A stretch of DNA of 34,082 nucleotides from Bacteroidota bacterium (GTDB lineage: Bacteria; Bacteroidota; Bacteroidia; Flavobacteriales; Flavobacteriaceae), in the NCBI GenBank assembly GCA_003650305.1, contig QMOV01000014.1:1-34082 (forward strand), given 5' to 3'. The notes under the pieces were generated by a model, which did not search any database, was not told the origin of the DNA, and saw nothing but the letters and a program-made list of their open reading frames with translations. The position numbers were made by a program, and so were the translations under genes. Position 1 is the first letter of the stretch, and each line of letters begins with the position of its first letter. Shown here piece by piece: positions 3,404 through 23,206 of this stretch.

Positions 3404-3493
3404 CTGATAAAATGATGAAATTTAAGTATTAACTTTTTTTTCAGAATTAATTAATCGTATTAAATTATTTTTACAGCAGAATATAATTAAACT

Positions 3494-4228
3494 ATGAAAA
3501 AAATAATTTTCACTCTTATTGTGATTTTAATAACATTGTCCTGTAAAAAAGATGCACAACCAATTGCTCAAGATATAATTGATGATGCTATTGAAGTTGC
3601 TGGCGGAAACATTATAGCAAAATCTATAATTGATTTTGATTTTAGAGCGATACACTATAAGGCAATTCGAGATAATGGTGAATTTCAATTAGAAAGAGAG
3701 TTTTTAGATTCTATTAATGTCGTTAAAGACGTTTATACTAATAACAGTTTCACAAGATTTATAAATAATAATGCTGTTGTTCTTGAAGATACTATGGCTG
3801 TAAAATATACAAACTCTGTTAACTCTGTGCATTATTTTTCGGTACTGCCTTATGGGTTAAACGATCCAGCAGTAAACAAGACTTATTTAGAAAAAGTAAC
3901 AATTAACAGGACCGAATATCATAAAGTTAAAATAACCTTTAATAAAGAAGGAGGCGGAAAAGATTATGAAGATGTTTTTGTGTATTGGATTAATACTGGA
4001 ACTAACAAGACAGCATTTATAGCTTACTCTTATATTACAGATGGAGGCGGAATGCGATTTAGAGAAGCTTATAACGAGCGTTATGTAAATGGAATACGTT
4101 TTGTAGATTACAACAATTATAAACCGATAGATAAAGATGTAGATTTGTTGGATTTAGCCAGTTTGTTTGAAAAGGGCGAACTGAAATTATTATCTAAAAT
4201 CGAAATTAAAAATATTGTAGTGGAGTAA
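3494..4228 (+). CDS. DUF6503-like lipoprotein
   Basis: 244 aa. The N-terminus MKKIIFTLIVILITLSCKKD is a lipoprotein signal with lipobox LSC, so the mature protein is anchored through Cys17. The rest is a soluble, beta-rich domain (DIIDDAIEVAGGNIIAKSIIDFDFRAIHY, then repeated strand/turn segments such as DYEDVFVYWINTGTNKTAFIAYSY). The opening 'DAIxxAGG' motif and the overall pattern match DUF6503 and related outer-membrane lipoprotein-sorting-like folds (LolA-like), which is an assignment from memory. It is monocistronic, with convergent genes downstream. The function is unknown. Confidence 0.75.
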   Translation: MKKIIFTLIVILITLSCKKDAQPIAQDIIDDAIEVAGGNIIAKSIIDFDFRAIHYKAIRDNGEFQLEREFLDSINVVKDVYTNNSFTRFINNNAVVLEDTMAVKYTNSVNSVHYFSVLPYGLNDPAVNKTYLEKVTINRTEYHKVKITFNKEGGGKDYEDVFVYWINTGTNKTAFIAYSYITDGGGMRFREAYNERYVNGIRFVDYNNYKPIDKDVDLLDLASLFEKGELKLLSKIEIKNIVVE

Positions 4229-7227: not shown

Positions 7228-9834
7228 TTAAAATTCTTCTGAAACCAAATCGCCTTGATTTCTAAATACTAACTTGTCATCAAATGCATCTAAAAGTATT
7301 ATACTATCTGTTGTAATAGTTCCTGCTAATATTTCTTTACTTAACTGGTTTAAGACTTCTTTTTGAATCACTCTTTTTACAGGTCTGGCTCCATATTCTG
7401 GATTGTAACCTTTCTCTGCTAAATAATCAACCGCTTCTTGAGTAGCATCAAAAGTGATGCCTTGTTGTGCAATCATTTTGGTAACATGTTTAAGTTGTAA
7501 ACCAACAATTTTAGTTATGTTTTCTTTGCTTAAAGGCGTAAACATAATGGTATCGTCTATTCGATTTAGAAATTCTGGTCTTACACTTTGCTTTAATAAT
7601 GCTAATACATCTACTTTTGCAGCTTCTATTGCAGAATCAATATCCTTTGTTGCTTCAAAACGTTCGTGAATAATTTGACTGCCAAGATTTGATGTCATGA
7701 TTATTATGGTGTTTTTAAAATCTGCCACACGACCTTTATTGTCTGTTAAATGTCCTTCATCCAAAACTTGTAATAAAATATTGAAAGTGTCTGGATGTGC
7801 TTTTTCAATTTCGTCTAAAAGTACTACAGAATATGGTTTACGTCTCACGGCTTCGGTTAATTGTCCACCTTCATCGTAACCAACATATCCTGGAGGTGCA
7901 CCAATTAATCTGCTTACAGCATGGCGTTCTTGGTATTCGCTCATATCAATTCTTGTCATAGCATTTTCGTCATCAAAGAGATATTCGGCTAAAGCTTTAG
8001 CCAACTCGGTTTTACCAACTCCTGTTGTTCCTAAAAACAAGAAAGTACCTATCGGCTTTTGCGGATTTTGTAAACCAGCACGACTTCGTCGTACAGCATC
8101 ACTCACAGCTATTATAGCCTCATTTTGTCCAACCACACGCTTATGGAGTTCGTCTTCAAGCTTTAGCAACTTATCACGTTCGCTTTGTATCATTTTGGTA
8201 ACAGGTATTCCTGTCCATTTAGCAACTACATCTGCAATGTCTTCATAAGTAACTTCTTCTTTAATAAGTGCGGTTTCTTGTTGATCTTGCATTTGCTTTT
8301 GAAAAACCTCTAGTTGCTCTTGTGCTTTTTTAATTTTTCCGTAACGTAATTCGGCTACTTTGCCATAATCGCCTTCACGTTCGGCACGTTCGGCTTCAAG
8401 TTTGTAATTTTCAATATTAGATTTTACAGTTTGTATATTATCGACCACTTCTTTTTCACTTTTCCATTTGGCATTTACTTCATTACGTTCTTCTTTAAGA
8501 TTTGCTAAATCTAATCGTAATGTTTTCAATTTAGTCTCATCCTTTTCACGTTTAATCGCTTCTATTTCTATTTCTAGCTGCATCACTTTTCTGTCTAAAA
8601 CATCGAGTTCTTCTGGTTTAGAGTTGATTTCCATACGTAATTTTGAAGCAGCTTCATCCATTAAATCAATGGCTTTATCTGGTAAAAAACGGTTTGTAAT
8701 GTAGCGTTCGGATAATTTGACAGCACCAATAATAGCCTCATCTTTAATACGAACTTTATGATGTGTTTCGTATTTTTCTTTAATACCACGTAGTATAGAA
8801 ATTGCATTTTCGGTATCTGGCTCTTCAACCATTACTTTTTGAAAACGTCTCTCTAATGCTTTGTCCTTTTCAAAATACTTTTGATATTCGTCAAGTGTTG
8901 TTGCACCAATAGCGCGAAGTTCTCCACGAGCTAAAGCAGGTTTTAAAATATTTGCAGCATCCATAGCACCTTGACCACCACCAGCACCAACAAGCGTATG
9001 TATTTCGTCTATAAATAGGACAACATCACCATCGCTTGTAGTAACTTCTTTAATAACGGCTTTTAAGCGTTCTTCAAACTCGCCTTTATATTTAGCACCA
9101 GCAATTAATGCTCCCATATCCAAAGCAAAAATTTGCTTGTCTTTTAAATTTTCAGGAATATCTCCATCTATTATTCTATGCGCTAATCCTTCAGCAATTG
9201 CAGTTTTCCCAGTTCCTGGTTCACCAACTAAAATGGGATTATTTTTTGTACGACGTGATAAAATTTGAAGGATTCTACGAATTTCTTCATCACGACCAAT
9301 AACAGGATCTAACTTACCATCTTTTGCCATCTGATTTAAATTTTTGGCATATTTGCTGAGTGCATTGTAGGTTTCTTCCTGACTTTGAGACGTTACTCTA
9401 TCACCTTTACGCAATTCATTTATAGCAGATTGCAAACCTTTTTCGGTTACACCTTGATCTTTTAGTATTTGAGCAATCTTACTTTTAGATTTAAAAACTG
9501 CAAGAATTAAATGCTCTATTGAAACATAGTCATCTTTCATTTTTTTAGCTATAATATTTGCCTCATTGAGGCTTTTTCCAGTAGTTTGAGACAGCATAAT
9601 ATCTCCGCCTGAAACTTTTGGAAAGCTTTCAAGCGCTGCATCTAAAATTTGTTTTAGCATTGCAACATTAACATTCAATTTTTTTAAAATGAATGGCAAC
9701 ACATTCTCATCAACTTCAAAAATGGCTTTAAATAAATGTTCATTTTCAATATGTTGATGCGCTAAACTTTGAGCAAGCTGTTGCGCTTGTTGTATGGCTT
9801 CTTGCGATTTTATGGTATAATTATTAAAATTCAT
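7228..9834 (-). CDS. clpB: ATP-dependent disaggregase ClpB
   Basis: 868 aa, the normal full length. ClpB is a cytoplasmic hexamer that threads aggregated proteins together with DnaK. The Clp-N repeats are at about 1-145. The first AAA+ domain has Walker A GEPGTGKT at 204-211 and Walker B VVLFIDE at 271-277. The coiled-coil middle domain at about 400-530 is rich in E/K (EIEAIKREKDETKLKTLRLD), which separates ClpB from ClpA/ClpC. The second AAA+ domain has Walker A GTTGVGKT at 602-609. The C-terminal D2-small domain includes GYNPEYGARPVKRVIQ. It is monocistronic. The start at 9834 is supported by the family N-terminus MNFNNYTIKSQEAIQ. Confidence 0.98.
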   Translation of the reverse strand: MNFNNYTIKSQEAIQQAQQLAQSLAHQHIENEHLFKAIFEVDENVLPFILKKLNVNVAMLKQILDAALESFPKVSGGDIMLSQTTGKSLNEANIIAKKMKDDYVSIEHLILAVFKSKSKIAQILKDQGVTEKGLQSAINELRKGDRVTSQSQEETYNALSKYAKNLNQMAKDGKLDPVIGRDEEIRRILQILSRRTKNNPILVGEPGTGKTAIAEGLAHRIIDGDIPENLKDKQIFALDMGALIAGAKYKGEFEERLKAVIKEVTTSDGDVVLFIDEIHTLVGAGGGQGAMDAANILKPALARGELRAIGATTLDEYQKYFEKDKALERRFQKVMVEEPDTENAISILRGIKEKYETHHKVRIKDEAIIGAVKLSERYITNRFLPDKAIDLMDEAASKLRMEINSKPEELDVLDRKVMQLEIEIEAIKREKDETKLKTLRLDLANLKEERNEVNAKWKSEKEVVDNIQTVKSNIENYKLEAERAEREGDYGKVAELRYGKIKKAQEQLEVFQKQMQDQQETALIKEEVTYEDIADVVAKWTGIPVTKMIQSERDKLLKLEDELHKRVVGQNEAIIAVSDAVRRSRAGLQNPQKPIGTFLFLGTTGVGKTELAKALAEYLFDDENAMTRIDMSEYQERHAVSRLIGAPPGYVGYDEGGQLTEAVRRKPYSVVLLDEIEKAHPDTFNILLQVLDEGHLTDNKGRVADFKNTIIIMTSNLGSQIIHERFEATKDIDSAIEAAKVDVLALLKQSVRPEFLNRIDDTIMFTPLSKENITKIVGLQLKHVTKMIAQQGITFDATQEAVDYLAEKGYNPEYGARPVKRVIQKEVLNQLSKEILAGTITTDSIILLDAFDDKLVFRNQGDLVSEEF

Positions 9835-9860
9835 ATCATTATTTTTATAATATTGTATTC

Positions 9861-9944
9861 AATAACCTTACCAATTCAAATCAATAGACATTGTGTCTAT
9901 AAAAGTCAATAAAAGCGTGACTTTTAGTCAGTTGTAAGGTTATT
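9861..9944. promoter_or_regulatory. Multibranched inverted-repeat structure between clpB and ytxJ
   Basis: Outer arms AATAACCTTAC (9861-9871) and GTAAGGTTATT (9934-9944) are perfect 11-bp complements. Inside are two adjoining hairpins: ATAGACA-TTG-TGTCTAT (9884-9900), and AAAAGTC (9901-9907) with GACTTTT (9919-9925). The whole could fold as a closed junction with two arms on DNA or RNA of either strand. Its lower edge is 27 bp from the clpB start, so it would lie in the clpB leader or promoter. It could be a regulatory RNA element or a small palindromic repeat. No tRNA or known riboswitch fits. Confidence 0.6.
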
Positions 9945-9979
9945 AAAGTTTATCGACTTATTGTAAAAACAATTAGTTT

Positions 9980-10372
9980 ATGGGAATATTTAATAGTTTG
10001 TTTGGTGCTTTTAAGAGTGTTAAAACGGTAAGCGAAAAATTGCCTTGGAAGGACTTAAATTCTTTAGATCAGCTTAATATTATAGAAAAAAAATCGATAA
10101 CAAAGCTTCAAGTTATCTTTAAGTATTCTACTAGATGTGGTGTGAGTAGAATGGTTTTAAATCAGTTTGAAAATAGTTACAATCTTTCTGAAGATGATTT
10201 AGATTTATACTTTTTGGATTTAATTAATTATAGAGATGTTTCTAACCAAGTAGGTTATAAGTTTCAAGTCCTACACGAATCTCCACAATTACTTGTGATT
10301 AAAAATGGAGTAGTGGTTGCTCATGAATCTCATGGTGGAATAAATGGTATTGATTTGAGTAGTTTTGTTTAG
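9980..10372 (+). CDS. ytxJ: Bacillithiol-system redox protein YtxJ-like (monothiol bacilliredoxin family)
   Basis: 130 aa with a thioredoxin fold and no signal peptide, so cytoplasmic. The family motif is TRCGVSRMVL around residues 51-60, with a single active cysteine (Cys53) instead of CxxC. The N-terminal KLPWKDLNSLDQLN and the cis-Pro segment HESPQLLVIKNGVVV are characteristic. Members are proposed to remove bacillithiol from protein thiols. That role follows from the family and is not shown here. It is divergent from clpB across the multibranched region, so the two may respond to the same stress. Confidence 0.88.
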   Translation: MGIFNSLFGAFKSVKTVSEKLPWKDLNSLDQLNIIEKKSITKLQVIFKYSTRCGVSRMVLNQFENSYNLSEDDLDLYFLDLINYRDVSNQVGYKFQVLHESPQLLVIKNGVVVAHESHGGINGIDLSSFV

Positions 10373-17330: not shown

Positions 17331-17360
17331 TTGTCCAACTATTAAAAGATTGTATCTTTG
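17331..17360 (+). promoter_or_regulatory. Promoter of the SRP RNA gene
   Basis: TTG (17331-17333), then 19 nt, then TATCTTTG (17353-17360) match the Bacteroidota primary sigma consensus TTG-N19-TANNTTTG exactly. The RNA begins a few bases later. Confidence 0.92.
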
Positions 17361-17362
17361 CA

Positions 17363-17468
17363 GTCGGCAAGTCCTACACAACTAGCTCCTGTTGAATCCT
17401 CCAGGGCGGGAACGCAGCAAAGGTAAATGGTTGTAGCAGTGTGATGTAGGTAGCTTGCCTTTTTTTTT
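17363..17468 (+). ncRNA. ffs: Small bacterial SRP RNA (4.5S type)
   Basis: About 100 nt. The end stem pairs GGCAAG (17366-17371) with CTTGCC (17454-17459), and inner strands CCTACAC / GTGATGTAGG continue it. The apical domain carries the conserved asymmetric loops and tetraloop (CAGGGCGGGAACGCAGCAA), the binding site for Ffh. A T-run at 17460-17468 ends it, with the end stem serving as terminator. It has its own consensus promoter. The RNA works with Ffh and FtsY in cotranslational membrane targeting. Confidence 0.95.
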
Positions 17469-22792: not shown

Positions 22793-23206
22793 ATGGCACT
22801 AAAAAAATCAAATAATAGTAGAAAAGTTGGAGTAGCTCTAACTTTATTCAGCTTATTAGCTATGGTAATTGTATTCGAATATTATAAAATTGATCGAGGA
22901 CATATCAATTTTATAATCATTGAAATAATTGTTTTCATTGTGTTTTTAGTAAGCTTCACTAAAACTTTTATTAAAACCGGCTTATGGAAATTTACCCACA
23001 AACCATTGAAAAAACTGGATGAAAGAGAAATCGAATTAACAAGTAAATCATTAAGATATGCTTATGGGATTTTTACAGTACTCGTATTGGGTTTGTTATT
23101 ATCATTAGCAGTAACCAATTTGTCAATAGATGTTGTGTTAGTAGCATCATTAATACTGTTTGCACATATCTTACCTGCATCTGTAATTGCGTGGACTGAA
23201 AAATAA
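22793..23206 (+). CDS. Four-helix membrane protein, DUF2178-like
   Basis: 137 aa. Predicted membrane segments are at about 12-30 (VGVALTLFSLLAMVIVFEY), 38-58, 88-106 (YGIFTVLVLGLLLSLAVT) and 111-129. The loop LDEREIELTSKSLRYAY at about 75-90 matches the DUF2178-type signature 'DERE...K...R.AY', which I recognise only as a family pattern. It starts 2 nt after the XRE gene, forming a regulator plus membrane-protein module. It may sense or signal at the membrane. No function is established. Confidence 0.7.
   Translation: MALKKSNNSRKVGVALTLFSLLAMVIVFEYYKIDRGHINFIIIEIIVFIVFLVSFTKTFIKTGLWKFTHKPLKKLDEREIELTSKSLRYAYGIFTVLVLGLLLSLAVTNLSIDVVLVASLILFAHILPASVIAWTEK

Follow-up and report, generated by a model that had tools for sequence, protein, structure and literature searches.

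A predicted sigma-54 promoter with putative palindromic operators in the inverted-repeat region upstream of clpB in a Flavobacteriaceae genome

Introduction

What should we make of a strong inverted-repeat structure that sits next to a chaperone gene? We analyzed a stretch of 34,082 nucleotides (contig QMOV01000014.1, hereafter the window) from a draft Flavobacteriaceae genome of ~95% completeness. In it, clpB (868 aa; 7228..9834, minus strand; an ORF scoring above the cut-off of NCBIfam TIGR03346 chaperone_ClpB) is divergent from ytxJ (9980..10372, plus strand), which encodes a bacilliredoxin-like protein of 130 aa that matches Pfam BrxC PF11009 and scores above the cut-off of NCBIfam TIGR04019 YtxJ. 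The original prediction, made from this sequence alone, called attention to the 84 bp at 9861-9944, where exact 11-bp arms were said to enclose two adjacent hairpins. It placed them in the leader or the promoter of clpB, and offered as candidates a thermosensing RNA, an attachment or replication-like site, and a small palindromic element. Is this region an RNA, a mobile element, or a DNA control region?

The inverted repeats and their conservation

The inverted repeats are indeed there. The left outer arm AATAACCTTAC (9861-9871) matches exactly the right outer arm GTAAGGTTATT (9934-9944), the two inner hairpins are found between them, and the 84-bp region folds more strongly than its dinucleotide shuffles (z = -4.8 for the plus strand and -5.8 for the minus strand, with 0 of 200 shuffles as strong). 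By itself, the 11-bp outer arm is not rarer than expected by chance in this AT-rich window, which has three distinct perfect inverted repeats of at least 11 bp whose spacers measure no more than 70 bp (6 seed hits), where Markov sequences produce ~2.4 seed hits (range 0-6) under the same criterion. The two other repeats have short spacers and are found at 22881-22917 and 3462-3509. As for known structural RNAs, the sole Rfam match in the window is a Bacteroidales small SRP RNA at 17358-17464 (RF04183, 100.1 bits).

The strength of the single-sequence fold on both strands is what would recommend a structured clpB leader or an RNA thermometer, but the comparative evidence goes the other way. RNAalifold finds no consensus structure in an alignment of 17 relatives, and on the same alignment the covariation score of the originally proposed structure is equalled or exceeded in 81 of 500 shuffles, with 69.0% of its cells paired vs. 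67.8% in the shuffles. A permutation of the outer arms results in p ~0.013-0.018, which becomes ~0.10 when our own genus is left out, and these sequences are not independent of each other. In the second hairpin, which forms the third helix, one half of a conserved palindrome is matched with spacer sequence that varies among relatives; the conserved unit is TGACTTTTAGTCA (9918-9930). Moreover, the structure would lie upstream of the clpB transcript, because the clpB start is predicted at 9847. Thus the thermosensing RNA finds neither a consensus fold nor clear covariation among the 17 relatives, and we consider any structured RNA at this position very improbable. A small mobile or attachment-type palindromic element has the right inverted-repeat anatomy, but it is the least credible reading of all: the 84-bp element has one copy in our genome, on which ground a REP or MITE-like element was rejected, and across many genera its parts stay at this locus with a fixed spacing. 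For an attachment or replication-like site we see no evidence.

Altogether, the full arms are not conserved, there are no multicopy matches, and the clpB start is predicted below 9861, a prediction supported by the sigma-54 start that has been mapped for this gene in F. psychrophilum (PMC9723704); these are, for the most part, the outcomes that the original prediction had named as counting against itself. Of its "leader or promoter," the leader becomes improbable, as the predicted start is downstream of the structure, while the promoter survives, and with it the link to heat regulation. Real as the inverted repeats are, their conservation is not that of an RNA or a mobile structure, and the 84 bp are most likely a DNA control region of clpB, neither RNA nor mobile element.

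A predicted sigma-54 promoter with two palindromes

The divergent clpB-ytxJ pair is present in many related genomes, and we compared 33 distinct clpB-ytxJ intergenic regions from relatives. Reading the plus strand, most of them present the same order of blocks, CAA-N6-TACCA, GACAAAATGTC, GACTTTTAGTC, and often TGTAAG-N15-CGAC, at near-constant distances and with freely varying spacers. Read on the clpB strand, the first of these is TGGTA-N6-TTG, which is the -24/-12 signature of sigma-54. In the window this block is TGGTAAGGTTATTGA (9859..9873, minus strand), an exact match to the pattern of a -24 GG (9872-9871) and a -12 TTG(C/A) (TTGA, 9862-9859) at fixed spacing, which is kept in the relatives. 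Because of the position of these -24/-12 elements, we predict the clpB transcription start at 9847 on the minus strand, with a 13-nt leader.

The two hairpins contain palindromes of the form GACNNNNNGTC. The proximal one is ATAGACATTGTGTCTAT (9884..9900; core GAC-N5-GTC at 9887-9897), centered at ~-45, and the distal one is the conserved unit given above (core at 9919-9929), centered at ~-77 and 32 bp from the proximal palindrome. In the 33 relatives, the proximal palindrome begins 24 bp upstream of the TGG in 25 counts and the distal palindrome 56 bp upstream in 22. The spacing between palindromes is 32 bp in 23 of the counted pairs, while shuffles never have more than one pair at any spacing. 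As 32 bp are three helical turns, both palindromes are on one face of the helix. With their 32-bp spacing and 24-bp offset, the palindromes have the dyad symmetry and the fixed helical phase upstream of a promoter that are expected of sites for a bacterial enhancer-binding protein (EBP), an activator that uses ATP to open the closed complex of sigma-54. Both components are available: rpoN (PF04552) and EBPs (PF00158) are found in 40 of 40 genomes, ours included.

We thus propose that the region of the left arm is a -24/-12 promoter from which sigma-54 RNA polymerase would drive clpB, and that the two palindromes are EBP binding sites. Judging from these sequence patterns, we hold it to be very probable that clpB has a sigma-54 promoter with two palindromic EBP sites, which would belong to a common heat-shock operator and have a groES-linked EBP as their putative reader. 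Some observations count against this reading. The proximal site at ~-45 is nearer to the promoter than typical EBP sites. In addition, a few relatives have no clear palindromes at clpB, and groES in most relatives has a degenerate form of the unit only. A different palindromic repeat, of the CCCGATAGCTATCGGG type, is found at differing positions in three of the clpB-ytxJ intergenic regions (L004, L035 and L040), where it looks like a dispersed repeat. The CIRCE operator of HrcA, TTAGCACTC-N9-GAGTGCTAA, is absent from 9500-10300.

The fourth block, TGTAAG-N15-CGACTTA (9933..9960, plus strand), has constant spacing in many relatives and is probably the promoter of ytxJ, which we would assign to the ECF type. 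With the strict pattern TGTAAG-N15-CGAC there are 15 matches in the 40 genomes vs. 5 for controls, mostly at ytxJ, and a wide regulon for this block is unsupported. The block is also found just upstream of an msrA-like gene in one genome (G016, L278), an occurrence suggestive of an ECF promoter for redox repair. The left outer arm falls within the predicted sigma-54 promoter and the right outer arm within this ytxJ block, and from there we can suggest where the perfect outer arm came from: it would have arisen because the -24 region of clpB (GGTAAG) and the ytxJ block (TGTAAG) have a common core on opposite strands, a core presumably lengthened by chance in our genome.

The same arrangement at other heat-shock genes

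A search for the two-site pattern with its promoter results in 22 matches in 16 of the 40 genomes vs. 3 for a reversed-pattern control. Six of these are beyond the known clpB regions, five of them ahead of hsp20 genes and one ahead of a clpB. The single-site pattern (palindrome, N13, sigma-54 promoter) has 109 matches in 36 of the 40 genomes vs. 8 in reversed-pattern controls, and the best 30 of these 109 loci precede, without exception, grpE, dnaK, clpB, htpG or groES. In a further chosen set of 20 loci, most are at dnaK and htpG, and the others include lemA, yidC, a rhomboid protease gene, a gene for a DUF2795 protein, and some probable chance matches. Our genome has four sites, ahead of clpB, grpE, dnaK and htpG. 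The unit upstream of grpE is nearly invariant: TGACATTTTGACA-N11-TGGCAGTACTTTTGC, that is, GAC-N5-GAC, N13, TGG. In a draw of 118 genomes from the whole phylum, we find 25 exact matches vs. 3 for controls, 23 of the 25 ahead of heat-shock genes, all in the same class. Most heat-shock chaperone genes of related bacteria have this same arrangement of palindrome, N13 and sigma-54 promoter ahead of them.

Apart from the chaperones, the unit with one mismatch is found in single genomes ahead of lemA, DUF2795, yidC and rhomboid protease genes (L264, L265, L266, L267, L268). A rhomboid protease is likewise a sigma-54 target in F. psychrophilum (PMC9723704).

A candidate activator

Which protein would read these palindromes? 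Our genome has four strong EBP matches. One of them is a 419-aa protein with an AAA+ domain, a Fis-type HTH and no receiver domain, encoded upstream of lptE, secG and groESL. It has the domains of a PspF-type protein, that is, a sigma-54 AAA+ domain with a GAFTGA loop, an HTH and no receiver, and in its orthologues the loop is GAFTGA or GSFTGA and the recognition helix, ELGISERTLYRKIK, hardly varies. It misses the PspF equivalog cut-off (TIGR02974, 272.3 vs. 443.55 bits), and it is a candidate that would work like PspF but is not classed as PspF. Another EBP, of 387 aa, is encoded close to grpE in relatives and combines a receiver with an AAA+ domain but lacks an HTH. The remaining two have receiver domains, and one of them is cut by a contig end.

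The EBP near grpE (L197:1760-2923 on contig C27 of our genome) and its orthologues form a conserved family, in many genomes close to grpE-dnaJ and to a mechanosensitive-channel-like gene. It was rejected as a reader of DNA, as the protein ends after the AAA+ lid.

Four genomes (G031, G034, G035 and G039) have a single strong EBP match each. In three of them (G034, G035 and G039) this EBP is confirmed to be the PspF-like protein, and in G031 it is located near groES. Operator-like sites are retained in these genomes ahead of grpE, htpG or groES, the one in G039 displaced outward by 11 bp, close to one turn of the helix. By elimination, and assuming that the reader is an EBP at all, we infer that the PspF-like EBP linked to groES is likely the reader of the palindromes.

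Discussion

Two other readings accept the palindromes as DNA sites and assign them a different role. The palindromes could bind a repressor or some other regulator, for instance a response regulator of the RprY type, in which case the sigma-54 promoter would answer to an EBP with binding sites elsewhere or with none at all, the HTH-less EBP linked to grpE being one candidate. RprY of Porphyromonas gingivalis binds and represses the promoters of groES, dnaK and clpB, but it does not bind the htpG promoter (PMC3646045), whereas the operator described here is found at htpG. An EBP without a DNA-binding domain is conserved near grpE-dnaJ, and the closeness of the proximal palindrome to the promoter is unusual for an EBP site; on the other hand, none of the four genomes with a single strong EBP match has such a match to the grpE-linked EBP, and we consider this reading unlikely. 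Slightly less doubtful, though still tentative, is the possibility that the divergent ytxJ, too, is under the control of the distal palindrome or of both, the region being a shared two-way switch. Between the distal palindrome and the TGTAAG block there are just a few bases, a distance that is near-constant in many relatives, but the ytxJ side has no sigma-54 motif, the two-site layout is present at hsp20 genes as well, and some relatives keep the palindromes and have lost the TGTAAG block. A two-way switch would supplement the sigma-54 reading and does not exclude it.

How does the sigma-54 reading compare with what is known? Sigma-54 and an EBP contribute to heat-shock gene expression elsewhere, as for E. 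coli ibpB and, with HsfA, for Myxococcus lonD. Those are single genes, while here one operator-promoter unit is found for most of the chaperone set. CIRCE is likewise a palindromic operator at chaperone genes, with a different sequence, and it serves a repressor at sigma-70-type promoters. The candidate resembles PspF, the EBP of the phage-shock response, in having no receiver, an N-terminal AAA+ domain and a C-terminal Fis-type HTH. It differs from PspF in falling below the NCBIfam cut-off, in the ~120 residues between its AAA+ lid and HTH, and in being linked to groESL and not to psp genes.

The sigma-54 control of clpB is already known from F. psychrophilum, in which start-site mapping assigned the starts of groESL, lon, dnaK, grpE-dnaJ, htpG and clpB to a sigma-54 motif (SM4), with -24/-12 elements at the same genes as here (PMC9723704). 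A survey from 2025 predicts the same sigma-54 enrichment in Flavobacteriia (PMC12316311). In the main text of the F. psychrophilum study no operator is named and any of three EBPs could be the activator (PMC9723704); our proposal adds a common palindrome with its geometry, and one EBP as the candidate. We did not find the operator, its geometry or the candidate activator in the literature searched, which consisted of the main texts of open-access papers.

There is also a more general caution for the analysis of structural RNAs: operator palindromes together with promoter boxes can yield a strong single-sequence fold.

How far does this mechanism extend? The PspF-like EBP encoded near groES would read the palindromes and may become active upon the build-up of unfolded protein. 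We give about even chances to the broader proposal that this class of bacteria runs its main heat-shock response via one dedicated EBP, groES-linked and PspF-like, which acts on a TGACANNNTGTCA operator abutting sigma-54 promoters, in place of sigma-32 or HrcA (the replacement being background knowledge), and which senses, itself or through a partner, the availability of chaperones. The heat-shock promoters of these abundant marine, soil and gut bacteria had been assigned to sigma-54, with the activator unnamed in the papers that we found. To this we add an operator that is defined in sequence and in its geometry at most of the chaperone genes, together with a single gene as candidate for the activator, and the question thereby becomes testable.
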